Assembly: GCF_003171515.1 (NCBI RefSeq)
Contig: NC_089397.1
Span: forward strand, 1,364,001 to 1,428,000
DNA: 64,000 bases
Direction: 5' to 3'
DNA from: Pyrenophora tritici-repentis
Taxonomy: Eukaryota; Ascomycota; Dothideomycetes; Pleosporales; Pleosporaceae
The position numbers were made by a program, and so were the translations under genes. The notes beneath the pieces were generated by a model. The model saw only the letters and a program-made list of their open reading frames with translations, did no database searches and was not told where the DNA came from. Below, piece by piece: positions 4,895-64,000 of this stretch. Numbering within the stretch: position 1 is the stretch's first letter; each line of letters opens with the position of its first letter.

Positions 4895-5256
4895 AGCATG
4901 CTCATTGTTAGATTTAGTTCGCATTGCTTAGAAATTGAAGAATAAAGATACAGCTTAAACATGTGTTTATCCAACGTTCATTGCTCGAGATGCAGCAGCA
5001 GTAGCTACTAGACACAATCAAGTTGTGCTAATCTTCATCGAATGAAATCAATACACGTTACTCCACAAAGGGACCACAGCGCGGGAACCACGAGTGAAAT
5101 TCAATTGAAGCCCAGGCTCACAAGCGACACGTGATGATGCACGAGCCAGCATCCGTACTGCCTAGACTGCCATCATAATGCGATTTCTCACCAATCTCGT
5201 ACAATAACCAGATTTGCGCAATTATTCTGGCAGATCAACAAAGCCCTGGAATTGAA
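4895..5256. other. Intergenic region
   Basis: Holds the 3' end of the monooxygenase and the promoter of the downstream oxidoreductase. I see no gene or repeat. Confidence 0.4.
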
Positions 5257-16549: not shown

Positions 16550-16596
16550 ATTGGTGGAGTTAACGTGTGTTGAAGGTGAAGGGGTTTGACGTGTTT

Positions 16597-16647
16597 TGGT
16601 GTTCCCCGCGCATCACGCGAATCCGCGCATCACGCGCACGGACACGT
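16597..16647 (-). repeat. Right terminal inverted repeat
   Basis: Perfect reverse complement of 8497-8547, followed by the TA target duplication at 16648-16649. Confidence 0.95.
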
Positions 16648-28276: not shown

Positions 28277-29599
28277 ATGCCAGACTTCAAGCCGCTCAAG
28301 GAGACACCGCTCTTCTCACCGTTCAAGCTCGGTCCTCTCAACCTCGAGCACAGAATTGTGCAGGCACCGTTGACACGTATGCGTGCGGTAAAAGAAAGTG
28401 ACGGGGTGTTTGTGCCAAAGGACCTACACGTTGAGTACTACAGCCAACGTGCGAGCAAAGGCGGCTTGCAATTGACCGAAGCTACTGATATCGCCAAATA
28501 TGTCAGTCACTCGCTCTTCCTGTCGCCAATAACCATGTTGACTTGTCTAGGCCAGCGGATATCCCGGCGTACCCGGTGTTTTCTCGGATTCGCAAATTGC
28601 GGGCTGGAAGAAAGTCACAGACGCAGTACACGCAAAGGGCGGCTACATCTTCTGCCAACTATGGCACACCGGACGTGCCAGTCCGCCATCGTTCCGTGCT
28701 GGAGCGCCGACGGTGAGCTCAAGCGACGTGCCAATGGAGGGTAGCTGGCTCGATGGTGTGGCATGTGCCGACCACCCACCCAAACCGTTGGGTGTCGAAG
28801 AGATCCAAGACCTCGCCAAAACTTGGGGAGAAGCATCGAAAAAGGCGATAGAAGCTGGTTTCGATGGTATTGAGATCCATGGTGCCAACGGATACCTCAT
28901 CGACCAGTTCCTACACGACAACGTAAACAAGAGGACAGATCAGTATGGTGGTTCAATCGAGGGTCGCAGTCGCTTTCCCCTCGAGGTCATCCAGGCCTGC
29001 TCAAAAGCCATTGGCGCTGATCGTGTAGGCATCCGTCTCAGCCCCTACAACTACTTCCAGAATACCAAGGACAGCAACCCCAACGAGCACTGGGAATACC
29101 TGTGTGAGAAGATTGCATCTCTACCGGAGGCAGAGAGGCCGGCATATGTCCACATGTGAGTCATCAGACTTCAGCTCCAAGAACAATCCTAACAACTGCC
29201 AGGGTCGAGCCGCGCTTCGACGAAGTCCTAGACGAACAGGCCAAGATGGATGCGCTGGCCGCATATACCAACAAAGGTGGCAAGGGCGTTGAGGCCGAGG
29301 CGACCGTAAAGGCCAAGGGGAACACACTCGTCAACTTCCGCAATATTTTGCAGAAGGGCGGCGTAAAGTTCATCGCGGCTGGTGGCTTCAACCGGGACAA
29401 CGCCGCGCCCAAGGTTGAATCTGGTGATGCCGACCTCATCATCTTCGGTCGCTGGTTTATTGCCAACCCCGATCTTCCCAAACGCCTCGCTGAGGGTCTG
29501 GAGCTGAACCAGTACGATCGCGACACTTTCTATGGCGCTGATCCGCCACAGAAGGGCTATACCGATTACCCTTTCCATGCGCAGACTGCTTCTGCGTAA
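28277..29599 (+). CDS. NADH:flavin oxidoreductase / Old Yellow Enzyme family
   Basis: FMN-dependent reductase of activated alkenes. Exons 28277-28501, 28551-29155 and 29203-29599 give 408 residues, typical of the family. Family motifs are clear: PLTRMRA near the N-terminus, CQLWHTGRAS, the FDGIEIHGANGYLIDQFLH active-site stretch with its His-Gly-Ala-Asn, NKRTDQYGGSIEGRSRF, and the FMN phosphate site DLIIFGRWFIANPDLP. Both introns restore the frame exactly. The physiological substrate is not predictable; such enzymes occur in both detoxification and secondary metabolism. Confidence 0.93.
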
Positions 29600-46431: not shown

Positions 46432-47373
46432 TCAAGACTCACTATCCTTCTTCTGCCCAACACCAAACGAAGCGCCCCCCTCGTCCATGAACCGCCTTTC
46501 CTCCTCCGTGCTCTCCCTTCCCAAAGCACCATTGCGATGAGGATACCTACCAAACTGCTCCAATATATCTGTATGCTCCTTCAGCGCCTTTTCATGCCCC
46601 TCCAGAAACATCTTTGTGCCATTGTACCCCTCCAGGCCCTCTACTTCTCTCGCATACTCGTCTACTATCTCACTGGCAAACCTATGCGCAGCAAGATCTT
46701 CAGAGTGCATGAGTGGCATATAGAACCATATCCTATGTGCTGCTGACAGCCGAAACACTGGATGCTTATCCGGACGCGGGATAGGCGAGCAAGGGGAGAG
46801 GAGACTACGAGCGAGCGCGTAGCCCATGCGGTCATAATGCGTGTATACTAATCGCAAACCGTCTTCTGTGCGATGTATATTTCGCGGCATCTGGTCTAGC
46901 AGGAGTGTTAGACTCAATGCTGTCCACGCTGCTTCTTCTCCCTTTGCCTTTCCCGCGGTATCCCGTTCTGCCTCTTCATCTGCAACGCGTTGTATCTCGT
47001 CCAGAAGTGGCTGCGCGTTTGCTTCGGGGAATTGGTCTGGTCCAATTGAATCCAGTGCGTGCGCAAAGGCAGTTCTACACTGGGCGTCGAAAGTAGCCTT
47101 TTCTTCAGGCGTGCCCATGAACCAGCGTTTCGCGACGCTCATGTCTAGCTCCTGGCCACTTATATCGACGCCTGGAAACCATAGCTCCGTTACATGTTTG
47201 TAGAGCGTGCGATTGAATATCGAAGGGTCGAGTTTGAATGTGGACGTGGAAATGGCGCGTTTAGATGTGGTGTCGAGGTTTGCGGGTTGGAGGTTTGACG
47301 GGCGGAAGCTAAAACTTGACGTTAGGAGCCGCAAAGGCGCGCGAACTGCGAAACGAGGCATCATAATTGTCAT
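46432..47373 (-). CDS. DUF924 family protein
   Basis: A 313-residue single-exon protein. Family motifs are clear: ELWFPG near residue 64, LLLDQMPRNIHR, RIWFYMPLMHSEDLAAHR, and ILEQFGRYPHRNGALGRES near the C-terminus. The fold is a TPR-like helical bundle of unknown biochemical role. The first 48 residues are basic and Ser-rich, consistent with a mitochondrial presequence. It is divergent from a cytochrome P450. Confidence 0.9.
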   Translation of the reverse strand: MTIMMPRFAVRAPLRLLTSSFSFRPSNLQPANLDTTSKRAISTSTFKLDPSIFNRTLYKHVTELWFPGVDISGQELDMSVAKRWFMGTPEEKATFDAQCRTAFAHALDSIGPDQFPEANAQPLLDEIQRVADEEAERDTAGKAKGEEAAWTALSLTLLLDQMPRNIHRTEDGLRLVYTHYDRMGYALARSLLSPCSPIPRPDKHPVFRLSAAHRIWFYMPLMHSEDLAAHRFASEIVDEYAREVEGLEGYNGTKMFLEGHEKALKEHTDILEQFGRYPHRNGALGRESTEEERRFMDEGGASFGVGQKKDSES

Positions 47374-48036
47374 GTTAGTGGAGAGATCAAATCGCGTTTC
47401 TTATACTACACATGAAGATTTCTAGCATACGCTAGCTTTGTGCTTCGAGTTGCTTTGGTGAAAGTGGATGCCTTTCGGTGGCTTCGGAAGGCCGAGCAAA
47501 GACGGCTGACTAAAACATCGCGACGCGAACTGTTCGTTATCTCCACATACACACAGCCCATTTCAATCGAGCTTGTCAGCGGCTTTGCAAGCAGCATCTG
47601 AGGACGTTGTGAGAGTCTGTGAGGATGCTTCGTCGGCTTGAAGACAACGAGAGATGAAACCGATTCTCGACCGGCGCTCGACGGAACGGCATTGCGTCTT
47701 CTCATCTGGGCAGACTAACTAGGTTCGAGGTCACTGAATACAGTGCATTTGCCGTGGATTGGAGAACGAGTGCTTGGAAGAAACAGAGCTAGCGCTTCAT
47801 CTTTCTCCGCATTCCCCTCTTCAGCCCAAGCAGGCACACGGCATCCCTGGATACACCCAAGCGAGCATGTGGGGTAGACCTGCGTGGTGGAGCATGAACA
47901 TGCGCATTCGGTCACATTAATCATGTTTAGATAGCCAGTATATTGATTCCCGATAGTAAAGGGTTACTAGTAATACATCACCGTCGTGTTGCTTCTGCGT
48001 TTTCCTTCGACTGGAGCCTCCAACATCCTGCCCCAC
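47374..48036. other. Divergent intergenic region, DUF924 / P450
   Basis: 0.66 kb. Minus-strand frames at 47406-47705 and 47715-47924 are open but unsupported; the second is cysteine-rich without a signal peptide. Promoters of both flanking genes are expected here. Confidence 0.4.
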
Positions 48037-49715
48037 ATGTACACCATCATCTTACTATCATTGTTTCTCGCAACCTTTGTCTTATACAATCGATACAAAA
48101 ACAGACCACCTCCTGGAAAGAAAGCCGCGCCTGGGCCTGCTGGTCTTCCAATACTAGGAAATGCACACCAACTGGGCAAGCAACCGTACCAGCAAATCAC
48201 AAAGTGGGCTCGCGAGTATGGCGAAGTGTACAAGATCCGTTTGGGATGGAACGACTGGTACATGGTCTGCTCGCCGGATGCATGCAAGGAGATTCTCGAC
48301 AAACAGTCTGCCTACACCAGTTCACGCGCGCCGTTTCCTGTAGCTGGTGATGCGCTGAGTGGTGGTATGCGTTTCCTATTTATGGAGTACGGACCCGAGT
48401 GGCGGAAGCTGAGAGGCATCAGTCATAAGTTGCTTACTCCAGCTGTGAGTGCGACGTTCAAACCGAGTCAAGAGTTCGAGGCCAAGATGTTGCTGGAAGA
48501 GATTCTGAAGGGTGCGGATGCGGAGAAGGGAAATGATGTTAGCTACATGGCGATTAGGAGGTATACTGTTAGTGTAATCATGACAAGTACATATGGGAGA
48601 AGGATACCGCAGTGGGTGAGTGCATGGACAGCGTTCTAGCATAACGGGAAAGGAGAGCTCATGTGAGACAGGACTGCCCCGAGGTTCACAGCATCTACGA
48701 GATCATGAATGATTTCTCTACAATAGCAAAGCCGGGAGCGTACCTTGCAGATACTCTTCCTTTTTTCGGCAAACTTCCGCCAAGTCTACAATGGTGGCGC
48801 AAAGGTGTCAAGCCATACTTTGACAAGCAGGCCAAGCTATGGATGTCATTCTGGAGTGCACTCAAAACCCAAAAGGAAACCAGACAGGCACCCGAATGCT
48901 TTGTTAAGCAATTCATGGAGAGTGGTTACGAGGAACAGGGCATCAGCGAACTCCAAGCCGCGTTTTTGGCGGGCAGCATGATCGAAGCAGGAAGCGAGAC
49001 AACGTCCGCCGCACTGAACACTGCGATCTTATACCTCAGCGCCAATCCAGATGCAAGAAAAAGAGCAGTCAACGAGATCCAGGAAGTCATCACCTCCTCT
49101 CGATCTCCTACATTCGATGATGAACCGAAACTGCCCTACATCCGCGCCATCGTGAAGGAGACACTACGTCTACGCCCCGTCACCAACATCGGCACACCGC
49201 ATTATACGACTGCGCCCGTAACCTACAAAGACATACATATCCCCGTAAATTCAGTCGTCTGCCTACAGCAATACCCTATTCACTACGATCCCACTGTGTT
49301 TCCCGAACCCCAACGCTTCACACCCGAGAGGTATCTTCACCACCCCCACGGCTCGGGCCATTATGCCGCAGGTCCAGCCGCCAGTCGCGACCATTGGGCT
49401 TTTGGTTCTGGGCGCAGGATATGCAGTGGCGTGCATCTAGCTGAAAACAGCATGTTCATTGTACTGGCAAAGCTACTTTGGGCTTTCGATATCTTGCCAC
49501 CACTTGATGCACACGGCAAAGAAGCTCAGGTGGATACGAGTGATGATTCTTTTGATGCAGTAGGTAGTACTACCATGGCGAAGCCTTACGGGGTGAGGTG
49601 GCGGGTGAGAAGCGAGGAGATTAGAGAGACTATCTTAAGAGAGGCGACGGAAGCAAGAAGGGATGGGTATGTGTTGAGGGGCGTGCGCGTCGGCGAGGCA
49701 GGTGTTGATTTGTAA
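48037..49715 (+). CDS. Cytochrome P450 monooxygenase
   Basis: Exons 48037-48615 and 48672-49715 give 540 residues. An N-terminal membrane anchor (TIILLSLFLATFVLY) is followed by the proline-rich hinge RPPPGKKAAPGPAGLPILG. The I-helix is AGSETTS, the K-helix ExxR is in KETLRLRP, and the heme loop is FGSGRRICSGVHLAE with its axial Cys. It should act at the ER. The general layout resembles fungal aromatic-compound hydroxylases, but family and substrate cannot be fixed. It lies 3.6 kb before an aromatic-catabolic gene block, which is suggestive only. Confidence 0.93.
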
Positions 49716-49949
49716 AAGTTTGTGCGACAAATTCTCTTACTCCGACTGTTGTGTCCGCATCGGGTTGCCTTAGTTGATGTTGCGCGTGCCTGCCCGTAGC
49801 AACCAATTTCGTCATCATTTGCCCTGCGTCTCTATTTGTTGTCTCCACTATTGTTGGTCGTACCCACCCTCTGCTCACCACCTTATGAGCTTCTTTGTTT
49901 GCGCATTTCTGCCAACAGATTGTCTCTACCATCACGGTTTGGTGTGAGC

Positions 49950-51591
49950 ATGTCGTCAACGCCACCCGACACCCCTCCTGGGACGACATCCACAACACTA
50001 GAACACATGTTTCCTGCGGCAAACAAGCTCGTGATCGAGGACGAAGAGTCGAGCTCTCCTTCTTTCTGGAACGAATCGTCGCTCTCACCATCCGACTGTC
50101 GCACTCTGTACAAGCTACTCATGGATACGAGCAGCTCTTCGCCCCTCTCACGGCAGCCGCTCTTTAGCGCCAACAGTTCAAGCCCACCAGCTCTAGACAG
50201 TACTTCTGAAAACTTGGTCATCCCAGAGAGCGAAGATGAGTCGTTCCAACAGATGGAGCACTTCGATTACGCCAATGAGCAAGAGGCTGGTTACCAAGAC
50301 GACAACGACAGCATGGATATGGACGACACTGATGATACCCTGGACACGCAAGAGAAAGACGACTTGTCTATAGAGTATGGTATGAATCTGGCCGCAGCGA
50401 TGGCACCTTCTCTGCCTGTTCAAGACTTTGGAAGCTTCTATGATCATGACGAGTCGACGTCGAATGAAAGCGAAGTACCGCGCAGTTATCGCTCTGAGGT
50501 TGAAATGAGCGTGCGGAAGCTCGAGGAGCAGTTGAGGAACAAGAATCTTCAAGATCTGTGGGATTTGCTGAGACCACGCGACTTCATTAAACCATTCTCG
50601 GCCCCAGGTGACACATCAGGGTATCGCATGCGCCATACTCGAGAGCAAGGCCATCAGCGAAACAGGCATCGTTTGACCACTACGCCTGTAGAGCCAAGCG
50701 AGACTACAATCAAGGTAGTTCTGTCAATGCTTCTAACGATTTAATTCACTGACCCTCGCATAGCCCCCTTCTTTACAAATTGCCGGTACCTCCTACTACT
50801 CACCACCCTACAAGCGCCATCGACGTGCCTCAGACCACGAATACTCTCGATTCAGCCCTGATACCATGTTTCCGTACCCCAACAGCCCCTTCTTCGAGTA
50901 TTTTCCGGTATCTACTAACCTGGACTCACCTTCGAGCCGCGTCATCACGTACTACAAAGGCCTGGAAAACTCACCTCCCAAACGCCGTCGCAACGCCTCT
51001 TCACCAGAAGAACTCGCCCAGATAGCCCGCGAAGCTAGAGTTGATGAAGAAGAGGCCGAGGAGAAGAAAGAGCTACAAGAGTTAGATCAATATAGGGATT
51101 TCGATCTGGCACCCATCGAACCTGTCATGGAGAGCCACGCTGCTGGTGACCTGATCATGTCTGCAACACCTGCTAAAGCGAGGGCTGCAGAGGATTGGAA
51201 TGAATGTATCTCGCCCAGTGCGCTCTCTCGTGTGCAGCATGCTTCCAAAGCGCGGGGCTTTTCGGTAGTATCTTCGCTTGTCGACACAGAGGACGAGGAA
51301 GATATTGACGCTAGTTACTTGGCACGCCCATGTGCGCCCACGCCTTCATCCCGTCGACCGAGGTTGCCAGTCGAGCAAGACGAGGAAGATGATGCTGATG
51401 TTGAGGATTGGGACTTTGTGGTCCGGCGAGAGGACAAGGATGTCTTTGTCGAGTCGTATGAACCTACGTTCATCACCGTCATTGGTATGCTTCCGACTGC
51501 TATGTTCTGGGCTACTGCGGCACCAGTCGTCAAACTCGGAAGTGACGCGTTTGACACGCTTGTGGAGACGCTGACAGGTCTGAAAGTGTAG
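49950..51591 (+). CDS. Hypothetical acidic, mostly disordered protein
   Basis: Not recognised. Exons 49950-50714 and 50764-51591 give 530 residues. Long stretches are Ser/Pro- or Asp/Glu-rich (DDNDSMDMDDTDDTLDTQ and EEDDADVEDWDF), with a basic patch PPKRRRN that may be a nuclear localisation signal and a charged helix around EEEAEEKKELQELDQ. A hydrophobic run near the C-terminus (ITVIGMLPTAMFWATAAPVV) could be a tail-anchor membrane segment. The start is the first ATG of the open frame. It lies convergent to the CoA-transferase gene. Confidence 0.7.
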
Positions 51592-51787
51592 GGGAATATC
51601 TTGTACAGATTCATGAGGTAGAAGACTGGCCGAGGGATTGACGGACGCGAAAGTGGATAATTCATGTATGACGTCAAACAGGTTATATAAGAGCATCTTC
51701 AGCGCGACAGCAGAGCCTAGATAGAAACAGCGCTCATAATCATAATCGTGGCTATAGTTCAAAACGCCTTTTCATCCCATCATCTCA

Positions 51788-53578
51788 CTACACATCCATC
51801 TCCTTCAACTCGCCACTAACCTCAAACTCAGCCTCTGTCTTCTTCCGAATCTCCTCAACACTAACACCCTTTGCATGTTCCTTCAGCGTCAATCCCTTGA
51901 CACGATCGACGTCAAAGACGGCCAAATCCGTGATAATAGTGCTCACGCACTTTTGCCCTGTCAAGGGGAAAGTGCATTGTTTGAGGATCTTGGGGTTGCC
52001 CTTCTTGTCCACGTGCTCCATTGTGATGACGACTTTCGTCTGCGTGGGGTTGGCGACTAGGTCCATGGCGCCGCCGATGCCTTTTACTTTGCCGGGGAGC
52101 ATGAAGTTTGCTAGGTCTGTAGGTGTGTGTGTTAGTGGGGAGTTTGGCGGGATGGGAAGGGGAATGCGTACCTCCGAATTGGTTTACCTGCATAGCACCT
52201 AGCATGGCCACATCTATTCTCCCCGATCGAATCATGCCAAAGGACTCGTGGCTGCCGAACGTAGAGGCGCCTTTGATTAGAGTGACTGTTTCTTTGCCGG
52301 CGTTGATGAGGTCTGGGTCCTAATTTGATGTCAGATATTGCGTTCAGGTGGGACAATGAAGATGGTGGAAAAGCTTACCTCTTCACCTGGCATGGGATAC
52401 CGTCCCATACCCAAGATACCGTTTTCACTCTCCAGCACGATTTCTGTGCCTTCGGGCAGGAAGGCTGGGGCCGCAAGTGGCATGCCGATGCCGAGGTTGA
52501 CATACATGCCGTCTTTCAGTTCTTGGGCTGCGCGCTTGATGATGCGTTCGCGCTTTTGGGATGCTTCTGTTGAGCCTATTTGTCTGTGGTTAGCCGGGTG
52601 CATGACAGGTATGGGAGATAACGGGATACGTACCACCTTCCAACAACGCCTTCTTCTGCTCCTCTGGACTCTTCCAGAACACTTTCCGTTCAATTTCCTT
52701 GCCAACGGTACTCTTGATCACCCTCTTAACGTAAATGCCCTGGAGGTGAATATCCTCTGGTGCAATTGCTCCGTCTTCTACAATCTCGTCTGCCTCGACA
52801 ATGGTCATTTTCGCGTTCTTTCCCATGGCCTCGTTGAAGTTGTTTTGTGCTTTACGGAACTGGCAGTTGCCTAGTCTGTCGGCTTTTGCGACTTTGACGA
52901 ATGCGTAGTCGCCGAAGATGGCTTCTTCCATGACGTAGGACTTTCCGTTGAATTCGCGGGTTTCTTTGGGGGGAGCCATGACGGCGATTGTGCCATCGGT
53001 GTTGTAACGGACGGGAAGTTCACCGGTTTGTACTGGTGGCTGTTAGTTGTTGTGTTCTGTAGTTGCTCGACGCATTCAGGAGAGACTCCAACTCTGAAAC
53101 CTCACGTACCTATCGTGCCATAAGCTGCTGGTGTATAAAACGCTGGTACTCCTGCGGCTCCAGCAGCGCACTTCTCTGCGATTGTGCCCTGGGGGGTCAA
53201 CTGCAGACTCAATTGCCCCTTCAAGTACATTTGCTCAAACACCTTGTTGTCTCCGATATAACTGGCAATCATTGTACCGATCTGCTTCGTTTCCAATAGC
53301 TGACCCAGGCCCACACCCGGCATACCTGCATTATTGCTGACAACTGTGAAGTTTCCGAGATCTTTTCGGTCGCGTAGCGCGTTGATGAGGGTATTTGGTA
53401 CACCAGAGAAACCGAATCCGCCGACCAAGACTGTGGTGTCAGACTTCATGTCTTTAATAGCTTCTTCGGCAGATGAGACTATCTTGTTGATTGCGGGTCG
53501 CGCGGCGCTGGCTGAGAAGAAGCGCATGCCAGTTGCTGGGCCGCGGCGGTGAGCCGTGAAGACGAGTGATCGTTGCAT
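51788..53578 (-). CDS. Succinyl-CoA:3-oxoacid (3-oxoadipate) CoA-transferase
   Basis: Transfers CoA from succinyl-CoA to a 3-oxoacid. Exons 51788-52116, 52172-52319, 52379-52575, 52634-53032 and 53110-53578 give 513 residues with both alpha and beta CoA-transferase domains fused, as in eukaryotic SCOT. The catalytic Glu is in VLESENGILGMG. GGFGFSGVPNTLI and GNCQFRKAQNNFN mark the alpha domain. The N-terminus (QRSLVFTAHRRGPATGMRFF) is a mitochondrial presequence. Substrate could be acetoacetate or 3-oxoadipate; the neighbouring maleylacetate reductase and thiolase favour 3-oxoadipate. It lies upstream of, and faces the same way as, nothing in the cluster except the reductase, both on the minus strand. 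Confidence 0.93.
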
Positions 53579-54134
53579 CGTGAGGATGTGGAGTTATCGA
53601 ATTTCGAAGGAAAAGAAGTTTCAAAACTGGCACGCTTCAAAGCAGCCCGAGTATATCAAGATTTCGCAGAGCTATTGCAATCGCTAACTGATCTCAGAGA
53701 TTGAGTTCGGACGGCTCCACAGCAGCAAGCTCAGTCTTGTTCAACGTCCCAGATTGTGCGTGAAGAATGTCGCGTACAATGCAGCGAAGTTGAAGGCCCC
53801 TCCACAATTACCACGAGGGAATACATGATGAAGACTAGCCAATTGAAGTAGACCGACGCAAATGCCGGCTGATGGCGGATTCGCGAGCATTGTCTCCACA
53901 ATCGGAGGTGGATGAGACCTTAGCCGGCTCATGTGCGGAGGTTGCGGGCAAAACGCATGTTCATTGGGTCACACGGAGCACGGAAAAACAACGTGGGGAC
54001 ACGGAAATGGAAAACATTTCCTCTTGATAGAATAGGCCGGCTCACGTGCTAACGCGTCACTACTGGGAAATCTCAATTGACATGTCGCGATCCACCATAT
54101 TCTCCAACACACAGCCTTCGCCCATATTCGTCTC
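53579..54134. other. Intergenic region, reductase 3' end to CoA-transferase start
   Basis: 0.56 kb that should contain the CoA-transferase promoter. A CACGTG core occurs near 54042. No gene seen. Confidence 0.4.
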
Positions 54135-55590
54135 TCAGTACAAGGCGTGGACAATTTGCTTCACTGCGCAATTCTGTGAGTGATTGATACTTGCGACTAT
54201 CCACAAGATAACTTACAGCTGGCAAAATCCTTGTGGTCCTTGCTATGTAGTGCGCGTGATGCGATGGCTTCTTCTTCGGCATCGCCAGTCGGCACGTTGT
54301 ACTACCGAGGGTCAGCACGAGCAAATTGGGCATCCTTCAATAACTTACAGCAGTCAATGTGGTCTTGTGTCCAAGCTCCTCAACCAGTCCTGCGATGGCA
54401 TCGGCTACTATATGCGAGTCCTTCTCGTCGCTCCCGGTTCCTTGCTTTCCGATATAGGGGATGATCCTGGCAATCTGCTTTGCTTCTTCGGGGTTGCTTG
54501 CCTTGAAGTGTACTGTCGGCGCGAGACTGAGGCAGCTCGTGATACCGTGGGGAATGCTGTACGTGGCGCCTATCGCATGGCCGATGCTGTGGCTTAGGCC
54601 AACGCCGCCAGTGTAGAGAAAGGGGAAAAGCGAGGAGTAGCAAGCGAGGAAGAGCTTCGTGCGGATCTCAGCATCGTCGGGATTTGATTTCGATTGCGGA
54701 AGAAATGTGAACAGGTCCTTGATGGCTTCCAAAGACATTCGTTTTGTCGGAATCTCAGCGGCAAGAGGGTGGTACATGAGCTCGACTGCATGATCCAGCG
54801 ATCGAATCTGGAGCTTGTCAGGCCATGATTTCTTTACATATGAAGAATAGGGTCACATACGCCTGTGCTTATCCATAGATTCATGGGTGTGTATAGAGCA
54901 AGCTCACCATCGTAGACAACAGCTAGGACTAGTTAGTGGGGAACTTAGCAAGGGCGGGAGATCTTGGCATATACCCTTTGGCACAAGTTCAGGATGACTG
55001 ACGGCAATCTTGTGCTTCTCTTCTGTCGTGAAGCCGGCGTTTTGTGTAGTCTCAGCTACGCTGAGCGTTGTTGGTACAGCAATGCTGGGTATCCACTTTC
55101 CCGTTTCTTCGTGAATGTTGTATGCAATTGCCTTTGCTGAATCGATTGGTGAACCGCCACCTATTGAGATGAGTACATCGCATCCTGATTTCGACATCAA
55201 GGCTGTTGCTTCTCTAATGTCCTGAATCGGCCTGTCCAATGTCAATTCCTGCTAGGAAGTCATCAATAGAATCCAACTCACGCATGCTGTCCAATCTTGC
55301 TAAAGGTACCACCATGAGCAGAGCCAAGTGTCTTTTCAATGTTCTTGATCACAGGCGTCTTCTCGTAGAGTGACCGACCAGTGATGATGAAAGCCTTGGT
55401 TGCACCGAGCTCGGCAATGACGTCTGAGAGCTGCTTGCTTGTACCTAAGCGATAGTATTAGATCTGCTCAGGCTGCAAAGATGGCGAGCGTACCGTTTCC
55501 ATATATCATAAGCTTGACGGGTGATGCTCTATACACTCCCTTGGCGGAGGAGTCGATGTTGCCATTCTGGTACTTGGTTGGAAGCGCCAT
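54135..55590 (-). CDS. Maleylacetate reductase (iron-containing alcohol dehydrogenase family)
   Basis: Predicted to reduce maleylacetate to 3-oxoadipate with NAD(P)H, the last upper step of the hydroxyquinol route. Seven exons: 54135-54163, 54217-54301, 54349-54807, 54861-54922, 54975-55231, 55282-55444 and 55494-55590, giving 383 residues in a closed frame. The nucleotide motif is ISIGGGSPIDSAKAIAY, with PTTLSVAETTQNAGF following, and the metal-site His-rich segment is GLSHSIGHAIGATYSIPHGI. The last exon gives the family-like end LKQIVHALY. Six short introns make this the most intron-dense gene here. It shares a 281-base bidirectional promoter with the thiolase. Confidence 0.9.
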
Positions 55591-55871
55591 GGTGTAGTGC
55601 CGTGTATGTGTCAACTTGCGCGTCAGAATGTTCAAGGTGAATAGTCGCGTCTTCATTCAGGCTAGATTCGGCAAGCCTCAGCTGGCAGTGCCCTGGTCCA
55701 CCATTCGTCATATGGAGGGGTCTTCCCGATTGCCCCACACAAGCTATCCGCCCCGCCACAGCTCGTGCGTCCGAACGCGATGCGGCAGTTTCGACATCGT
55801 GAAGTCGCCCTACATGGTGCTTCATTAGGCGCAACCATGTGTTGGACATTCCTCTCAAGCCAACGCGCAAC
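55591..55871. promoter_or_regulatory. Bidirectional promoter, reductase / thiolase
   Basis: 281 bases separate the two divergent start codons, so both genes must be driven from this interval. I cannot name a specific operator. Confidence 0.6.
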
Positions 55872-57189
55872 ATGGCATCCTTTAGCAGAGCCGCACGGAA
55901 TGCATTGCAAAAGAGCCCCAATGATGTTGTCCTCCTTTCTGCAGTCCGGTCACCCATCAATCGAATCTTCAAGGGCGGATATAAAGATGCGCATCCGGAG
56001 GATATTTTGATGCCGGTCAGTCTCGGCGAGTACATGCGTTGTGGTAGCTAACTCGCCGCAGGTTATGAAAGCGGCTGTGCAACGAGCTGGCATTGAGAAG
56101 AGCGACGTGAACGATGTCATGATTGGGAACGTCCTTGCTGAGCTTGGTTTCGCAAAGACGGGACGTATGGCCCTCAACCATGCCGGCTTCCCGAATTCGA
56201 CAACTTTTCACACCGTCAACCGTCAATGCTCGAGCAGTCTACAGGCTATTACCCACATCTCACATTCCATCATGGTGGGCCAGATAGACGTGGGGCTCGC
56301 TGGCGGTGTAGAAAGCATGTCAAGAAACTATGGCTCGCGGGGCGTCCCCACCGACGTCTCGCCCGCCCTTCTCGGATCGAACGTCAAAGATGCTCGCGAC
56401 TGTCTCATGCCCATGGGCATTACATCTGAGAATGTAGCAGAGAGATTCAAGATCGACCGGAAGTCGCAAGATGAATACGCTGTGCGGAGTCACGGTCGCG
56501 CAAGTCGCGCTCAGAAAGAAGGGCGTTTTGACTGGGAGCTTGTGCCAGTGACGGTCCAGAGAATGGACGAGGCAACCGGTCAGCCTGCAGGATACGAGGT
56601 GACCAAAGACGACGGTATCCGCCATGGATTGACATTTGAGAAGGTGTCAACGCTTAAACCTGTGTTTGGTGAAAACGGCAAGAGCACTGCAGGCAATTCG
56701 TGAGTATTCGATCCCCCTTTGACACTGCATAGCTGATAATATAGATCTCAAATATCCGACGGTGCATCGTCTACCATTCTTGCTCGACGTTCCTGGGCAG
56801 AGGAGCGTGGGCTCCAGCCTCTCGGTCGCTTCGTGGGCACCCAGGTCAAGGGCTGTGCACCAGACGAGATGGGTATCAGCCCGATATACGCCATTCCAGC
56901 ATTGCTGAAGTGGACAGGTGTCGAACTCAAGGACGTCGATGTGATTGAACTGAACGAGGCTTTCGCAAGTCAGACTGTCGCTTGTATCCGAGAATTGGGT
57001 CTGGACGAAGACAAGGTGAACCCTAATGGAGGTGCGATAGCCCTTGGGCACCCAACCGGAGCGACAGGTGCTCGACAGACAGCTACACTATTTGGTGAGC
57101 TTCGACGCCAGGACAAGGAGATAGGCATTGTCAGTATGTGTGCCAGCACCGGCATGGGCGTCGCATCCTTGTTTGTGAGAGAATCATGA
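55872..57189 (+). CDS. 3-ketoacyl-CoA (3-oxoadipyl-CoA) thiolase
   Basis: Cleaves a 3-oxoacyl-CoA to acetyl-CoA plus a shortened acyl-CoA. Exons 55872-56015, 56062-56699 and 56745-57189 give 408 residues. Active-site residues are present: nucleophile Cys in NRQCSSSLQ, His in [16 protein letters not shown], and second Cys in MCASTGMG. The TAGNSSQISDGA segment spans intron 2 correctly. No C-terminal peroxisomal tripeptide is seen. The N-terminus ([13 protein letters not shown]) could be a mitochondrial or peroxisomal PTS2-like signal, unresolved. Position next to maleylacetate reductase favours 3-oxoadipyl-CoA over fatty-acid substrates; this is inference. Confidence 0.92.
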
Positions 57190-57501
57190 TAGACGAAGAG
57201 GGCCTAGTCGTGCCTGTAGATCAATGCAGAAGAAAGATGCCGGTGCGGAATTCCGGTGACGCCAAATTGTCGCGTACATCACGTGCTGTACCGCTAACTA
57301 ACTGTTTTCGGTGCTGCCAAATGCAGGGGCCGACACTAGCTCGGCAATGGCTTCCCCACACGCCCGAACCTGCATCATCCGTCCCACACGTCCCCGGCCA
57401 CCGCATGAAGCCATGATGTTTAATATGCTCTTGAGGTTCTGTTTCGAGCCTCATTTTCCTCCCCTGATTCCTTAAAGTCTTTGCATCTTTACCAATCCGT
57501 C
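57190..57501. other. Intergenic region, thiolase to lyase
   Basis: 0.3 kb separating two genes in the same direction; presumably the lyase promoter. A TCACGTGC element lies near 57278-57285. Confidence 0.4.
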
Positions 57502-58929
57502 ATGTTCTTACTTCGGCGTGCCCCACTCCGTGCCATTCCCCGGCTGACCGCAATCCGTCCCCAACGACGATCACTCGGCAGCGTGAGCGCCATCGACTCT
57601 GTCATCTTTCGCACGCTCTTCGGGACTGATGAAATCCGCAAAGTCTTTGATGATAAGGCTTACATCAATCGTTGTGTCGATGCGGAGACAGCTTTGGCAA
57701 GAGCGCAATCAAAATGCAATGTCATTCCGTCTCATATCGGAGAGATTGTGACGTCGAAAGCCAGTGAGATTTCTCTAGATTATGACAGACTACGCCAGGA
57801 AACTGAAATCGTTGGTTATCCCATCTTCCCGCTGGTACGGCAATTGTCCGCATCGTGTGGGGACGAAGCTGGACGATATGTGCACTGGGGGGCAACAACT
57901 CAAGACATCATGGATCTGGCGAGCATTCTACAGATGAAAGAGGGTCTTGAGATAGTCGAACGCACGCTTCGGTCTGTCATCAAGAACCTGGAAGATCTAT
58001 CGAGAAAGCACCGGGACACACCCATGGCTGGCCGCACGCATTTACAACATGCACTTCCCATCACCTTTGGGCACAAATGCGCTATCTGGCTATCTGGATT
58101 TCAACGACACCTTGAACGTCTCGAGCAGCTCAAGTCTCGCGCATTGATGGTTCAATTCGGGGGAGCCGCAGGTTCTTTGGCCTCTTTGGGCTCGGGCGAC
58201 GATGGGATCCGTGTTAGGAAAGAGATGGCCAGAGACCTTGGACTTACAGATCCTCCAATCACCTGGCACGTTGCGAGAGATGGTGTTGCTGAGATCACGA
58301 ACTACCTTGCACTTGTTGGTGGTACTCTAGGCAAGCTGGGCTTGGACATCATCATCATGTCGTCAAACGAGCTGTCGGAAGTATCGGAGCCTTTCGTGCC
58401 CCATCGCGGTGCTTCTTCTACAATGCCACAGAAAAGAAACCCCATTTCAAGTGAAGTCATCCTGGCAGCGTCAAAGATCTTGCGATCAAACGCAGGTTTG
58501 GTACTGGATGGCATGGTTTCCGACTTCGAGCGCGCGTCGGGTCCATGGCATCTGGAGTGGGTGGCCGTCCCGGAGAGCTTCGTCATCGCTGTGGGCGCCC
58601 TTAACCAGGCTGACTTTGCGCTTTCGGGCCTTGTAGTGAACCCGAAGCAAATGCTCACCAACCTCTACTCCACCAGAGGTCTCATCGTTGCGGAGGCTGT
58701 CATGATGGGGCTTGCTCCACATGTCGGTCGTCAGAAGGCGCACGATGTCGTCTATGAGGCATGCAGAGAGAGCATCGAGAACGACACTAGTTTGTTGGAG
58801 GCTCTGCAAACACGCTCTGAAATCACTGACAAGATTTCGAACGAAGAACTGAGCTCGTTGTGCGACGCAAAGAACTACCTCGGCTCCTGTGGGCTCATGG
58901 TTGACGAGGTTCTGGCCGCGTCGAGATGA
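57502..58929 (+). CDS. 3-carboxy-cis,cis-muconate cycloisomerase-like lyase (fumarase/aspartase superfamily)
   Basis: An intronless 475-residue protein. The N-terminal 27 residues (FLLRRAPLRAIPRLTAIRPQ) are basic with no acids and look like a mitochondrial presequence. The superfamily signature is GASSTMPQKRNPISSE, and the substrate segments WGATTQDIMD and AGRTHLQHALPITFGHK are present. FERASGPWHLEW is typical of the bacterial PcaB type. Fungal protocatechuate pathways usually use an unrelated beta-propeller lactonizing enzyme, so this bacterial-type protein is notable. Adenylosuccinate lyase is the main alternative within the superfamily. It lies between the thiolase and the dioxygenase, all on the plus strand. 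Confidence 0.87.
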   Translation: MFLLRRAPLRAIPRLTAIRPQRRSLGSVSAIDSVIFRTLFGTDEIRKVFDDKAYINRCVDAETALARAQSKCNVIPSHIGEIVTSKASEISLDYDRLRQETEIVGYPIFPLVRQLSASCGDEAGRYVHWGATTQDIMDLASILQMKEGLEIVERTLRSVIKNLEDLSRKHRDTPMAGRTHLQHALPITFGHKCAIWLSGFQRHLERLEQLKSRALMVQFGGAAGSLASLGSGDDGIRVRKEMARDLGLTDPPITWHVARDGVAEITNYLALVGGTLGKLGLDIIIMSSNELSEVSEPFVPHRGASSTMPQKRNPISSEVILAASKILRSNAGLVLDGMVSDFERASGPWHLEWVAVPESFVIAVGALNQADFALSGLVVNPKQMLTNLYSTRGLIVAEAVMMGLAPHVGRQKAHDVVYEACRESIENDTSLLEALQTRSEITDKISNEELSSLCDAKNYLGSCGLMVDEVLAASR

Positions 58930-59354
58930 CAGCCACCATCCATAGATAGGCTGTGATAGCAATCTCGTAGATATCTCATCTGAGTCAGCACTACATTATC
59001 ACACCCTCACCTTGTCAAACTTAATAACCAACCCCGCAAGTGAGCCACCGGATCCACATCGCATTCCCATTCCTCTGGCATGATTTACGCACCATCATCT
59101 CGGAGGTCCCACTAACCCGGTCAGGATCCTTCGTCCACTACTTGTGGGCCTCCCACCGCTCCCGTAGCCTAGGTACCGAAAGTGGCAACCCCGCTATTCA
59201 GAGACTCGGGCCCCGCCACCACATACTGCACAGACCTGTCACAGTACTGCGGCAGATGTCGGCCTAACCAGGCACGGTCACGTATGTCTGATATAAGACT
59301 TGACCGTTGATTCTGAGAGCTACTTCATATTCACATTACTACTCCACACCTAAC
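58930..59354. other. Intergenic region, lyase to dioxygenase
   Basis: 0.42 kb, presumably the dioxygenase promoter. No gene or repeat seen. Confidence 0.4.
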
Positions 59355-61132
59355 ATGATGCAAGACTTCAAGGAACGCAAGCTCGTCACCGACCCCCAAA
59401 AGGCATTTCATTACACCGACCTTCAGCGACTGAAACCAACACGCGCGAACGATCCATACGACTATCAAGCAGGATGGGGAAATCGCCATCAGTCTGAGGT
59501 CATTCCAGGCACATTGCCCGTTGCCCAGAACAACCCCCAAGAAGTTCGTTTCGGGCTCTACACTGAAGGCATCACATATTCGGCATTTGCCGCACCGCGC
59601 GCACATAACTTCAGTACTTACATGTACCGGTGCCGTCCTGCAGCAGCTCACAGTATGTGCAGTGAAATCATCCCTAGTTTCAATTGCTAAATGGTATCAG
59701 ATGGCTATATTCCTATTGAGTCCAAGTCAAACATCACCAACTGCTTCCTCTCCATTAATCCCAAAGTCGAAACCCTTCCCGAACAAGCTGAATGGCATCC
59801 ATTCCCACTTCCCAAGGAGGATGAGAAGATCGACTTTGCCGATGGTCTACACACTCTCTGCGGCAGTGGAGACCCTAACATCAAAGAGGGTATTGCGCTA
59901 TATGTCTACATGATCAACTCAAACATGGAGCGCCGAGCATTCTGCAACACTGATGGCGACTTCCTTATCTGCGCACAACAGGGCAATCTAGACATCAAGA
60001 CAGAAATGGGAAAGATCTTCCTTCAGCCAGGCGAGATTTGCGTCATACAGCGCGGCATTCGATTCTGCCTGAACTTGGCTCCGGATACCCCAGTAGCACG
60101 CGGTTACATAACCGAGGTATGGGGGTCCATGTGGGAACTTCCTGATTTGGGTCCTCTGGGGGGCCACGGTCTTGCCAATCCTCGTGACTTTCTTTACCCG
60201 GTAGCTGCTATCGATGATGAATTGCACGTGGACTGGCAGATTGTCAACAAGACTAACGGCCAGCTCGTGGCTATTCAGCAAGATCACAGTCCATTTGATC
60301 TCGTTGCATGGCACGGCAATGTTGTCCCTTACAAGTACGACCTTACCAAGTTCTCCTCGCAGAACAGTACATCCATCGATCATACCGACCCCTCGATTTT
60401 CACGGTTCTCACTGCCAAGTCACGCGACCCTCTCACACCGCTGGCCGACTTCCTTTGGTTCGGTCCACGATGGGACGTTGCGACTAACACCTTCCGACTT
60501 CCCTACTTCCACCGCAACTCCGCGTCCGAATTCCTAGCTTGCATTTATGGGCAAGGTCTTGGACGAAGTGACGACTTCCAGCCCGGTGGAGGCAGCTTCG
60601 AAGGAGGCCACACACCTCATGGTGGCTTCCACGAAGGATACCAGCATGGTATGCGTATCCACGAGAGTCAACCGGAGAAGATTTTGACTGGTGAGTGACA
60701 ATCATGGTTACATCAATTGGCTGTTCACTAACGTGATGATAGATCAATTGACAATCATGATCGAGTCAAGCCGCCTCTTCCTCTTTACGGAGTACGCTCG
60801 CAAAGGCTGTGGTACAATCGAGACCCGCGGCACCGACTATAAAGTTTGGGACGCTCTACCGGTAAGCTAAAACGCTTGAGCTTTCTCAATATCTTACTAA
60901 TGATTCCCAGGATCGCTTTTCCTCAAACAAGAGAGCTCAGGAATTGCTCACTCGAATCAAGGAAGATAAGATTGCTGAGAAGAAACGGCTCGCACCTTAC
61001 TACTTTGGTGGATTTTCGCATGGCGCCAACACCAGCGATACGGAAGGCGTTCACTCCGAAGAGCTTCAGCAATACCTGTCCAGTAAATCAAAGACCAACG
61101 GCATCAATGGTACTAATGGAGTGGGGGCATAA
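59355..61132 (+). CDS. Homogentisate 1,2-dioxygenase family protein (paralogue)
   Basis: Predicted non-heme Fe(II) ring-cleaving dioxygenase. Exons 59355-59652, 59701-60690, 60743-60861 and 60911-61132 give 542 residues. The iron ligands of the family can be placed: His and Glu in YFHRNSASEF, and His in GGGSFEGGHTPHG. Other family stretches are YQAGWGNRHQSE, GLHTLCGSGDPN, DHSPFDLVAWHGN and DPSIFTVLTAKS. It is about 100 residues longer than classical enzymes (about 445), partly a C-terminal tail ending in an Asn/Gly-rich stretch. The genes for maleylacetoacetate isomerase and fumarylacetoacetase that usually accompany it are absent here, so homogentisate may not be its substrate. Confidence 0.9.
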
Positions 61133-61417
61133 TGTGCTGTTTCGGTTTCCGGCGGTTTCAGTCACTTCAGCGCTTTACTTTTCTTTCTCTTGCAATTGGC
61201 GTGTACACATATTCGTTCGATATCCAATGCTACACAATGAACATGACCAAGTAACCATATTGCTTTCCAAAAGATGTCCGTGCCTTCGCGTTCTTGAGCC
61301 TCTAGCTTTCTGCTGACCCCACAATCGGTATGTGGGGCGATGATTCGAGAAGGCGATGCTTCTTGTTCTTCTCTTTAACATGGAAACGCGCGAAGATGGC
61401 GCGTCAACAGCAAGACC

Positions 61418-63021
61418 ATGTTTCCCCTCGGATTTGTTACGAGAACAGCAGCGCACAGCCCTCTATGCCATATAGCTAATCGATTGGCTACATCAAGGTC
61501 GCAAATATGGCGGAGAGGGATTACATCCAAGCGCGAGGTGGATAAGCAGATGGTAGAAAAACTACCGTTGGCTGGTATCAAGGTGCTGGATATGACCAGG
61601 GTGCTTGCAGGGGTAGGTGACGACTGCATGGAAGATTGAAGCCAACGGCACTAACATCACGTAGCCATACTGCACGCAAATACTTGGAGACCTCGGGTGC
61701 GCGAAAAGTTACACCAGTACGCCTTCAATTACTAACTCGAGGGTAGAGCCGATGTGATTAAGATTGAACACCCAACAAGAGGCGACGACACGCGATCCTG
61801 GGGACCACCAGATGCACTATATATCGATGGCGTCGAGCGTCAATTCCCTGGCGAAAGCGCGTACTACCTCTCTGTAAGTTACTACTATCGTCCGGAGATA
61901 AGATTTTGCTGATGAATATGCCAGGTAAACCGCAACAAGCGATCTGTCGGCCTCGCTTTCAACAACCCAACCGGGATATCTATCCTCCACCAGCTCGCTC
62001 AGAAGTGCGACGTACTTGTCGAAAACTACCTCCCCGGCTCCCTCGCGAAGTACCAGCTTGACTATGCCACGCTCGCAAAGCTCAACCCCTCTCTTATCTA
62101 CGCTTCGGTGACAGGATATGGCCAAACGGGACCCTACCGCGACCGCGCTGGATACGATGTCATGGTGGAAGCTGAGATGGGGTTGATGCATATTACTGGA
62201 GAACGTGATGGGCCGCCGGTGAAGGTTGGTGTTGCTGTTACGGATATCATGACGGGCATGTACACAGCGATTGGCATACAAGCGGCGCTCTACTCGAGGA
62301 AAGAGACGGGGTTAGGTCAGTGGATTGATGCAAGTTTGAGCGATGTGCAAGTCGCTGGGCTGGCCAATATAGCAAGTAGCGCACTTGTTACAGGAAAGGG
62401 GGATAGTGGAAGATGGGGAACTGCTCATGGTAAGTTTTTCACGTCTCTCCGGGACATGGGGTGATTGAGCGGATGAATAAGTAGATGTCGGAAGACAGAG
62501 CTAACACCACATCAGCAACCGTCGTCCCCTACCGCGCCTACAAAACAAAAGACACAAACATCGCTGTAGGCGGCTGCAACGACCGCCTCTACGGCATCCT
62601 CTGCGACAAGCTTTCCCGCCCCGAATGGAAAACCGACCCCCGCTTCCTCACGAACGCGCTCCGCGTCAAACACCGCATCACTATTGACGCCCTCGTAGAA
62701 GCAGAGCTCATGACAAAGACAACGCAGGAGTGGCTTGAAATCTTCGAGGGCAGTGGCATGCCGTATGCGGCAGTCAACGATATCAAAGGGACAGTGGAAC
62801 ACGAACATGTTCTTGCGAGGAACATGATTGAGGAGGTGGAACACCCGGCTGTAGGCAAGGTCAAGTTGGTCAATCATCCTGTCAAATATTCGAGAGCGGA
62901 ACCGAAGATTAGGAGCCCGCCGCCGTTGTTAGGACAGCATACTGATGAGATTCTGAGAGAGGTGCTGGGGTATGGGGAGGATGAGATTAAGGAGTTGAGG
63001 GAGGGAAAGGTCGTTGCATGA
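61418..63021 (+). CDS. CaiB/BaiF CoA-transferase, succinyl-CoA:glutarate CoA-transferase-like
   Basis: Family III CoA-transferase. Exons 61418-61612, 61665-61696, 61747-61873, 61925-62429 and 62516-63021 give 454 residues. The N-terminus (FPLGFVTRTAAHSPLCHIAN) is Arg-bearing and acid-free, a mitochondrial presequence. Family motifs: MTRVLAGPYCTQILGDLGAD, SVNRNKRSVGLAF, VENYLPG, TGYGQTGPYRDRAGYD with the catalytic Asp, RWGTAHATVVPY and PPPLLGQHT. The overall pattern matches the eukaryotic SUGCT branch, which moves CoA from succinyl-CoA to glutarate or similar dicarboxylates. It directly precedes a mitochondrial dicarboxylate-carrier gene. Confidence 0.92.
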
Positions 63022-63156
63022 GATATCTTATTGTACAAATTTGTATCACATATTCAGGACAATACTTTAATTCCAACAACACCCATCCTTCATACCCAAA
63101 CTTCCCACACCACCGCCCTCATCTCACCTCCCCTCCCATGCCCCCCAAACACGCCA

Positions 63157-63167
63157 TCACGTGACCC
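63157..63167. promoter_or_regulatory. TCACGTGACCC element, copy 1
   Basis: 11-mer with the palindromic core TCACGTGA, a Cbf1/bHLH-type site. An identical copy lies 157 bases downstream. Confidence 0.45.
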
Positions 63168-63313
63168 AGCACACCACCCCTTCCGCTTCCAAACCTTCTC
63201 GGGTAATATTTTTGCCAAGCCGGCCCGATGATGCAAGTCTCATGTCCGTGCCAGACGCCAACTCCACTCCTCTCTGCTCGGACTCCGCTGCTCGGATATT
63301 TGCGGCTGCCAAC

Positions 63314-63324
63314 TCACGTGACCC
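63314..63324. promoter_or_regulatory. TCACGTGACCC element, copy 2
   Basis: Identical to 63157-63167 and in the same orientation, about 350 bases before the carrier start codon. Confidence 0.45.
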
Positions 63325-63672
63325 CGTGTTCGTATTTTGCTGTGCCCCACCGCACGTTTCGCCTCACCGGTCTGTCTGCTGCGCCGCTAGCCCCACATAA
63401 GCCACGATGCGCCCCACTGATGTTCTGAGCGTGGATGTTTGGACTTGGCGAGTTGCATAGTGGATGGGATGAATGGGATGGGCATTTGGGAGATGGGAGG
63501 GATGGAGCATGTGGTGTGCGATGGGTGGGGATGCGCGATGGTGGTGTTGGTGGTAGTGGGATATGCCTGCCTAGGTAGATGAGTTGGGTATGAGTAGGGT
63601 GAGCATCATCACGGCCATCGGACTTGCATTACTTCCGAAACTGATGTGAAGATTCACGAAGTGCTTGAAGCA

Positions 63673-64000
63673 ATGACGACAAAGGATGGAAAGACATTGC
63701 CATTCCGGTACCAATTTGCTGCTGGGGCGGTTGCGGGTATATCAGAGATACTGGTGATGTGAGAAAATATAGCTTTTTTATCCCTTGAAATTCTGTTTGG
63801 AGAGTGCAAGTTGCTGAGAATGTAGAAAGGTACCCGCTTGATGTAGTCAAAACGCGCATTCAATTACAGCATGGGACGGTGGTTGATGGACAGGGGTATA
63901 ATGGGGTATTGGATGCTTTCAGAAAGATTATGAAGAATGAAGGTGTTTCGAGGCTGTATCGGGGAATAACTGCGCCTATATTGATGGAGGTACCAAAACG
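63673..64000 (+). CDS. Mitochondrial 2-oxodicarboxylate carrier (partial, 5' end)
   Basis: Inner-membrane carrier, cut by the window edge. Exon 1 is 63673-63758 and exon 2 starts at 63830 after a 71-base intron. The first transmembrane helix (FRYQFAAGAVAGISEILVM) leads into the carrier signature YPLDVVKTRIQLQ, then GYNGVLDAFRKIMKNEG and SRLYRGITAPILMEVPKR. These features match the Odc-type branch that exchanges 2-oxoadipate and 2-oxoglutarate. The pairing with a SUGCT-like gene upstream points to lysine/tryptophan or glutarate metabolism. Confidence 0.88.

Follow-up and report, generated by a model that had tools for sequence, protein, structure and literature searches.

A homogentisate dioxygenase paralogue recurrently paired with a fumarase-superfamily lyase in a putative aromatic catabolic gene block of Pyrenophora tritici-repentis

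In a 64,000-nt stretch of the genome of the ascomycete Pyrenophora tritici-repentis (contig NC_089397.1; C8:1364001-1428000 of a 40.9-Mb assembly of 41 contigs), hereafter the window, a paralogue of homogentisate dioxygenase (HGD) adjoins a lyase of the fumarase superfamily in a block of six genes, the others encoding a maleylacetate reductase (MAR), a 3-oxoacid CoA-transferase, a thiolase and a family-III (CaiB) CoA-transferase. Because the HGD–lyase pair is co-located in other fungi as well, the block appears to be a conserved variant of the 3-oxoadipate-type route. We tentatively prefer to read it as a cluster dedicated to an aromatic compound that is channelled into an oxygen-substituted 1,4-hydroquinone, which the HGD paralogue would open, MAR would reduce and the CoA-transferase and thiolase would carry further, with the lyase eliminating a substituent HX.

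Results

The window HGD carries both HgmA domains on its main exon (HgmA_N, PF20510, 253 bits; HgmA_C, PF04209, 107 bits), and the full spliced protein scores 471.6 bits against the hmgA equivalog model TIGR01015, below the cut-off of 510.75. Its three iron ligands are conserved, and two second-shell residues (human HGD numbering) are changed (Tyr350 to Gly, His365 to Glu). At least 90 of the 94 nearest rows of our HGD list have another residue in place of Tyr350, which 119 of the 122 rows of the other clade retain; in this alignment the H371 column is misplaced for the canonical HGD copy. The best sequence match in the PDB, 9PZ4, called a homogentisate 1,2-dioxygenase, likewise carries, by eye, Gly in place of Tyr350; this entry is not among the structural matches listed for the window HGD. 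Among the sequence matches listed, the closest relatives come from the Dothideomycetes Plenodomus lingam (90%) and Paraphoma (89%).

HgmA_C matches occur at three places in the genome: in the window, at C1:3.13 Mb, where a canonical HGD adjoins a fumarylacetoacetase-like gene, and at C1:0.2 Mb, where a second paralogue has an open spliced frame of 483 amino acids (54.1 kDa). The window HGD is 43% identical to the canonical copy and 50% to the second copy, and these two share 47%. That the window HGD is the tyrosine-pathway enzyme was considered and rejected, as the canonical copy exists beside the fumarylacetoacetase-like gene. In a tree of 217 sequences of 420-700 amino acids (214 of the 234 HGD rows plus the three of this genome), the window HGD falls within a 74-row node with a support of 0.995, which we call clade W, and the 94-row group made up of clade W and a sister clade is split from the clade that holds the C1:0.2-Mb copy (the second-copy clade) with a support of 1.0.

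The pairing of the clade-W HGD with the lyase is shared by other fungi. Co-location was read from lists of the best 120 HGD and the best 120 lyase rows, with one representative per 90% cluster; contigs of equal size were taken as the same contig, and a shared megabase contig does not amount to adjacency. We typed 81 HGD rows as clade W (P0001-P0075, P0085, P0086, P0092, P0099, P0105 and P0106); near rows were left out (e.g. P0076, P0077, P0078, P0087 and P0101, five that match no lyase-list contig by eye), and Aspergillus niger, Paecilomyces variotii, Fusarium decemcellulare, Elasticomyces elasticus and Clonostachys rosea, for which strains or assemblies differ, went uncounted. The longest contig is equal in size to that of a lyase row for 16 of the 81 clade-W rows, 13 of them from named assemblies, and 13 of the 14 named fungal assemblies present in both lists have HGD and lyase on equal-size contigs. 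Consecutive locus tags for the two genes were found in all six assemblies tagged in both lists, which are among these 13 (Penicillium alfredii, Oculimacula yallundae, Scytalidium lignicola, Fusarium nematophilum, F. lateritium and Verticillium albo-atrum), and thus the pair recurs in Eurotiomycetes, Leotiomycetes and Sordariomycetes; the window itself and an equal-size contig in Lineolata add the Dothideomycetes. In the control, the other HGD list, 2 of 119 rows share a contig size with a lyase row, one being a 6.7-Mb Phlyctema contig and the other a coincidence at 1723 bases, a contig too short for both genes. Seven species, as read from the lists, are common to the other HGD clade and the lyase list (Phlyctema, Venustampulla, Lineolata, Dactylonectria, P. 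verhagenii, A. venezuelensis and A. hiratsukae), only Phlyctema having the two on an equal-size contig.

Joined gene models point to further neighbours of the pair. A thiolase C-terminal domain is fused to the lyase in a model from Thermoascus thermophilus (P0159) and HGD to CaiB in one from Didymosphaeria (P0003), so that the thiolase–lyase and HGD–CaiB neighbourhoods recur at least once each. A. niger has both a clade-W HGD (P0041) and the lyase (P0152), known from different strains or assemblies.

The lyase had been described in the sequence-only reading of the window as PcaB-type, which holds at the superfamily level only. It scores 448.2 bits against NF006554 (cut-off 595) and 342.7 bits against TIGR02426, whose cut-off of 355.75 is slightly exceeded by a bacterial member of the same clade (L119, 362.6). 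The window lyase carries the motifs RTH and GASSTMPQKRNP; RTH is shared by 20/20 further clade rows (three loci counted twice), in place of the RTW of all five true PcaBs tested, and on this ground we rejected a standard PcaB. Five of five bacterial genomes encode a true PcaB in addition to a relative of the window lyase, which is a separate paralogue. The N-terminus of the window lyase may be a mitochondrial presequence, and confidence in the structure model of this lyase is low for residues 1-29 and 289-314, the latter spanning the SSTMPQKRNP loop.

At bacterial loci of lyase relatives, a DctA-type C4-dicarboxylate transporter lies nearby in 15 of 80 cases and a class I fumarase in 4 of 80, neighbours that fit a lyase acting on a substituted C4 acid. 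PDB 3C8T, a fumarate lyase from Mesorhizobium sp. BNC1, is among the closest described systems, and ring-opening genes adjoin none of the 80 bacterial relatives. The 80 loci represent a large 3C8T-like bacterial lyase subfamily, distinct from PcaB, in Bradyrhizobium, Burkholderiales, Streptomyces and others.

The 3-oxoacid CoA-transferase exceeds the cut-offs of both general models, TIGR02428 (pcaI/scoA, 288 bits) and TIGR02429 (pcaJ/scoB, 204 bits); its best PDB match is 3DLX, a human SCOT entry, and its basic N-terminus resembles, by eye, a mitochondrial presequence. MAR matches PDB 9PH0 ('MAR1') with 309 bits over residues 16-383, the second-best match reaching 110 bits, and its STGIRSLDHAVE has, in an alignment by eye, Arg at the position of the first metal-binding Asp of iron alcohol dehydrogenases. 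Replacement of this Asp by Asn or Arg is a MAR trait (PMC5125639). With this Asp replaced and known MARs as its nearest relatives, the protein can be assigned to the maleylacetate reductase family. A second MAR on contig C2, 45% identical to that of the block, has the same Arg trait (STGMRAMDHAIE), and CoA-transferase paralogues with 64% and 50% identity lie elsewhere in the genome. The thiolase scores 422 bits against TIGR01930 and 284 bits against the pcaF (3-oxoadipyl-CoA thiolase) model, whose cut-off is 597; the nearest model to the CaiB gene is succinate-glutarate CoA-transferase (358 bits, below the cut-off of 750). The finishing steps of a 3-oxoadipate route are thus represented as families, and we infer their specificity for 3-oxoadipate.

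A precedent for ring opening by an enzyme of this family is MhdA of A. niger, annotated as a homogentisate dioxygenase, which converts methoxyhydroquinone to 4-hydroxy-6-methoxy-6-oxohexa-2,4-dienoic acid (PMC8336404). Matches of 70-72% in A. niger and Paecilomyces at first led us to regard the window HGD as the MhdA orthologue, a view abandoned once the second clade was found. The expected mass of MhdA-His is 55.5 kDa (PMC8336404). Untagged members of the second-copy clade have masses of 54.3 (A. homomorphus), 54.5 (A. fijiensis), 54.3 (P0298) and 53.7 kDa (P. rubens), with a 460-residue row from A. fumigatus at 51.6 kDa. A short His tag adds about 1.1 kDa, bringing A. homomorphus, A. fijiensis and P0298 to 55.4-55.6 kDa; the A. 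niger clade-W protein (P0041) has 60.6 kDa, or 56.8 kDa without the residues beyond 504. A. fumigatus and P. rubens, the latter of which we equate with P. chrysogenum, belong to the second-copy clade. The taxa listed for MhdA include A. fumigatus and P. chrysogenum (PMC8336404). By species names in the lists, the two HGD clades occur together in at least 15 species. The window HGD is therefore probably not the MhdA orthologue, MhdA fitting another HGD by mass and taxon list, and the C1:0.2-Mb copy is the probable MhdA orthologue of this fungus.

The six genes of the block (Table 1) were modelled by hand as open spliced frames across 51788-63021, with GT-AG borders at all predicted introns. The sequence-only reading had placed five of them side by side, and this was confirmed; its limits coincide exactly with the CoA-transferase stop and the HGD stop, and the sixth gene, CaiB, was left unlisted. 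It had also reported intradiol dioxygenase and fumarylacetoacetase as missing, which is correct for the block. Elsewhere in the genome, intradiol dioxygenases are matched at three places (with one stop in the aligned stretch at C1:7329053) and the FAA_hydrolase family at five, one of them beside the canonical HGD (C1:3.13 Mb), and these families are therefore absent from the block and not from the fungus. Neither maleylacetoacetate isomerase nor fumarylacetoacetase is among the six genes, the isomerase not having been searched for genome-wide. No Rfam match was obtained in 47000-64000 at gathering thresholds.

Outside the block, a cytochrome P450 (two open reading frames, ORFs) immediately precedes it. 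Further upstream, the gene set at 3023-29159, with a phenol-hydroxylase-like flavoprotein, fungal-specific transcription factor ORFs, a xanthine-dehydrogenase-type molybdenum hydroxylase and an NADH:flavin oxidoreductase ORF, is reminiscent of the Aspergillus nicotinate (hxn) cluster. The same interval contains a reverse-transcriptase ORF and a Tc5/DDE_1 transposase ORF.

Table 1. Gene models of the block and other features (window positions unless a contig is given)
Feature	Position	Strand	Length and exons	Basis
3-oxoacid (SCOT-like) CoA-transferase	51788..53578	-	513 aa; exons 53110-53578, 52634-53032, 52379-52575, 52172-52319, 51788-52116	predicted spliced model, family profiles
Maleylacetate reductase (MAR)	54135..55590	-	383 aa; 7 exons	spliced model, PDB match
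Thiolase (acetyl-CoA C-acyltransferase family)	55872..57189	+	408 aa; 3 exons	spliced model, TIGR01930
Fumarase-superfamily lyase, PcaB paralogue	57502..58929	+	475 aa; intronless (one exon)	frame, profiles, motifs
HGD paralogue, clade W	59355..61132	+	542 aa; exons 59355-59652, 59701-60690, 60743-60861, 60911-61132	predicted spliced model, profiles, tree
Family-III (CaiB) CoA-transferase	61418..63021	+	454 aa; 5 exons	spliced model, profiles
C1:0.2-Mb HGD	C1:195500-205000, about 3900-5900 in that stretch	-		spliced frame; 885-aa ORF adjoins
Cytochrome P450 (two ORFs)	47974-49715			
Phenol-hydroxylase-like flavoprotein	3023-4894			
Reverse-transcriptase ORF	9128-12940		1270 aa	endonuclease and RNase H matches
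Tc5/DDE_1 transposase ORF	14714-16612		632 aa	
Fungal-specific transcription factor ORFs	18945-20120 and 20202-21776			
Xanthine-dehydrogenase-type molybdenum hydroxylase	23658-27428			
NADH:flavin oxidoreductase ORF	28551-29159			

Discussion

The idea, put forward in the sequence-only reading, that an HGD-like enzyme opens a 1,4-dihydroxylated ring whose product is passed on towards MAR is chemically sound and has a precedent in MhdA (PMC8336404), and our analyses support it in part. The clade-W HGD would cut the ring between a C-OH and the C-O carbon next to it, in the manner of MhdA on methoxyhydroquinone, and because the ring carbon beside the C-OH would bear oxygen, an acid or ester, rather than an aldehyde, should result, so that the product would be maleylacetate, either unmodified, substituted or esterified. 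MAR would reduce its C=C bond to a 3-oxoadipate-type acid, which the CoA-transferase and thiolase could convert in the mitochondrion from 3-oxoadipate to succinyl-CoA and acetyl-CoA. As to the lyase, a 2-X-maleylacetate, once reduced by MAR, would have the substituted-succinate core used by elimination lyases, and the most likely reaction would be a beta-elimination of the leftover ring substituent HX from this 2-X-4-oxoadipate; the fumaryl-type product of HX loss might then be reduced by MAR a second time. For comparison, bacterial MARs reductively remove chlorine. The succession of HGD, MAR, CoA-transferase and thiolase is the best-supported part of this proposed pathway and the lyase reaction its weakest step. 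That MAR and the CoA-transferase are extra copies of families found elsewhere in the genome was counted in favour of a dedicated cluster.

Several observations weigh against this reading. The predicted compartments match the proposed order of reactions poorly: a basic N-terminal extension is common in the fungal lyases and by eye is seen in neither HGD nor MAR, which is awkward for a lyase step placed between the two. HGD, MAR, CoA-transferases and thiolase occur at none of the 80 bacterial lyase loci (up to 9 kb on each side), and in 51 of the 80 the downstream ORF belongs to one family, an M29 peptidase in the one examined, a neighbour at odds with a C4-acid context. Of the Aspergillus and Penicillium rows, many occur in the lyase list only (best-120 lists), and the lyase may therefore also act without a clade-W HGD. 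In Cladophialophora carrionii CBS 160.54, whose HGD branches deeply within the clade, HGD and lyase are on contigs of different size, and the recurrence of thiolase and CaiB with the pair comes from the two joined gene models only. Two further points limit the certainty with which MhdA is set apart from the window HGD: none of the rows named in the second-copy clade is from A. niger, and MhdA could also belong to the sister clade included in the 94 rows.

A less probable explanation is that the window HGD has the function of MhdA after all, in which case the block would be a clustered version of the vanillate route already published, with the lyase as a passenger. The two enzymes are of the same family, MAR is adjacent, and the published sequence runs from methoxyhydroquinone through MhdA, a MAR-like reductase and OmeA to 3-oxoadipate (PMC8336404). 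Deletion of mhdA in A. niger abolished growth on vanillin and reduced, without abolishing, growth on vanillic acid (PMC8336404), and because some of the latter growth is left, a second enzyme could share the substrate of MhdA. Against this, mass and taxa point to the second-copy clade rather than clade W for MhdA, the species with both HGD clades have kept them, and none of the six genes is an OmeA-like esterase, no genome-wide esterase search having been made.

Two other alternatives appear unlikely. In one, which takes up the suggestion of the sequence-only reading that the lyase handles a carboxylated intermediate, the lyase would decarboxylate a carboxylated ring-opening product and so provide MAR with maleylacetate, by analogy with Tad1 of Ustilago, a trans-aconitate decarboxylase that converts trans-aconitate to itaconate. 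Tad1 is related to the window lyase (40-41% identity), yet it has RSN rather than RTH and lies outside the lyase clade; a search of open-licence full text found no paper on its active site. The other would split the block into two adjacent but separate functions, a 3-oxoadipate module (MAR, CoA-transferase and thiolase) and an unrelated HGD–lyase(–CaiB) module. This would agree with HGD–lyase being the only co-location shown across a range of fungi and with the C4-dicarboxylate context of some bacterial lyase relatives (15/80), but the joined thiolase–lyase (Thermoascus) and HGD–CaiB (Didymosphaeria) models show each of these neighbourhoods to recur at least once, and the MAR and thiolase genes start 281 bp apart on opposite strands as a divergent pair. 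A role of the HGD paralogue as an additional enzyme for homogentisate or gentisate, with incidental neighbours, as its family name and iron ligands might suggest, is very improbable given its score under the hmgA equivalog cut-off, its changed Tyr350 and His365, its 43% identity to a canonical HGD that adjoins a fumarylacetoacetase-like gene, and the lack of maleylacetoacetate isomerase and fumarylacetoacetase among the six genes.

If the preferred reading of a dedicated cluster is pursued to its end, the block might represent a further fungal ring-opening pathway beyond the eight intermediates of FAMeDB, in which the clade-W HGD would act on a doubly substituted hydroquinone, MAR and the lyase would reduce, eliminate and reduce again, and the CoA-transferase and thiolase would finish; we regard this as rather speculative.

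Comparison with known systems

The catabolism of lignin and plant phenols by fungi is still being charted, the methoxyhydroquinone and tetrahydroxybenzene routes having been characterized only lately (PMC13094099). The sequence-only reading had considered a route of the present kind to be undescribed, which is wrong for the kind, because ring opening by MhdA followed by a MAR-like reductase, leading to 3-oxoadipate, is already in print (PMC8336404); for the window enzyme itself no description was found. In that 2021 report, a MAR-like reductase and the esterase OmeA were proposed to act after MhdA to give 3-oxoadipate (PMC8336404). In A. oryzae, vanillin raises the expression of the mhdA, MAR and omeA homologues (PMC12335040), a 2025 review describes MhdA as HGD-like (PMC12388069), and FAMeDB (2026) counts methoxyhydroquinone among eight fungal ring-opening intermediates, with MAR serving both the hydroxyquinol and the methoxyhydroquinone pathways (PMC13094099). 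The 3-carboxymuconate step of A. niger uses CmcA (PMC10406623). In the open-licence full-text literature, we found nothing on the clade-W HGD or its pairing with the lyase, and searches for fungal clusters containing this lyase together with an HGD listed two bacterial papers. Thus, the general kind of route is known, the combination of clade-W HGD and lyase fits no pathway that we found described, and our profile and residue tests do not bear out public names such as 'homogentisate dioxygenase' or '3-carboxymuconate cycloisomerase'. With the pair recurring in several groups of filamentous ascomycetes and both proteins present in the tractable A. niger, this is a concrete and testable gap.

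Of the described systems, the A. niger methoxyhydroquinone route (VhyA, MhdA, the MAR-like reductase and OmeA) shares with the block ring opening by an HGD-family enzyme, a MAR-like next step and 3-oxoadipate as the end point (PMC8336404). Unlike the block, it includes no lyase as far as the accessible text of that report goes, mhdA neighbours an esterase and an MFS gene, and the reductase candidate NRRL3_4956 is, by its number, unlinked (PMC8336404); moreover, MhdA most likely belongs to an HGD clade different from that of the window enzyme. The Scedosporium cluster resembles the block in having MAR and CoA-transferase clustered with a ring-opening gene, but its ring opener is a hydroxyquinol (intradiol) dioxygenase (PMC8283699), whereas the block has an HGD paralogue and an added lyase. 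The homogentisate (tyrosine) HmgA–FahA cluster is found elsewhere in the same genome, on C1, and the window HGD, 43% identical to its dioxygenase, differs from it in the active site.

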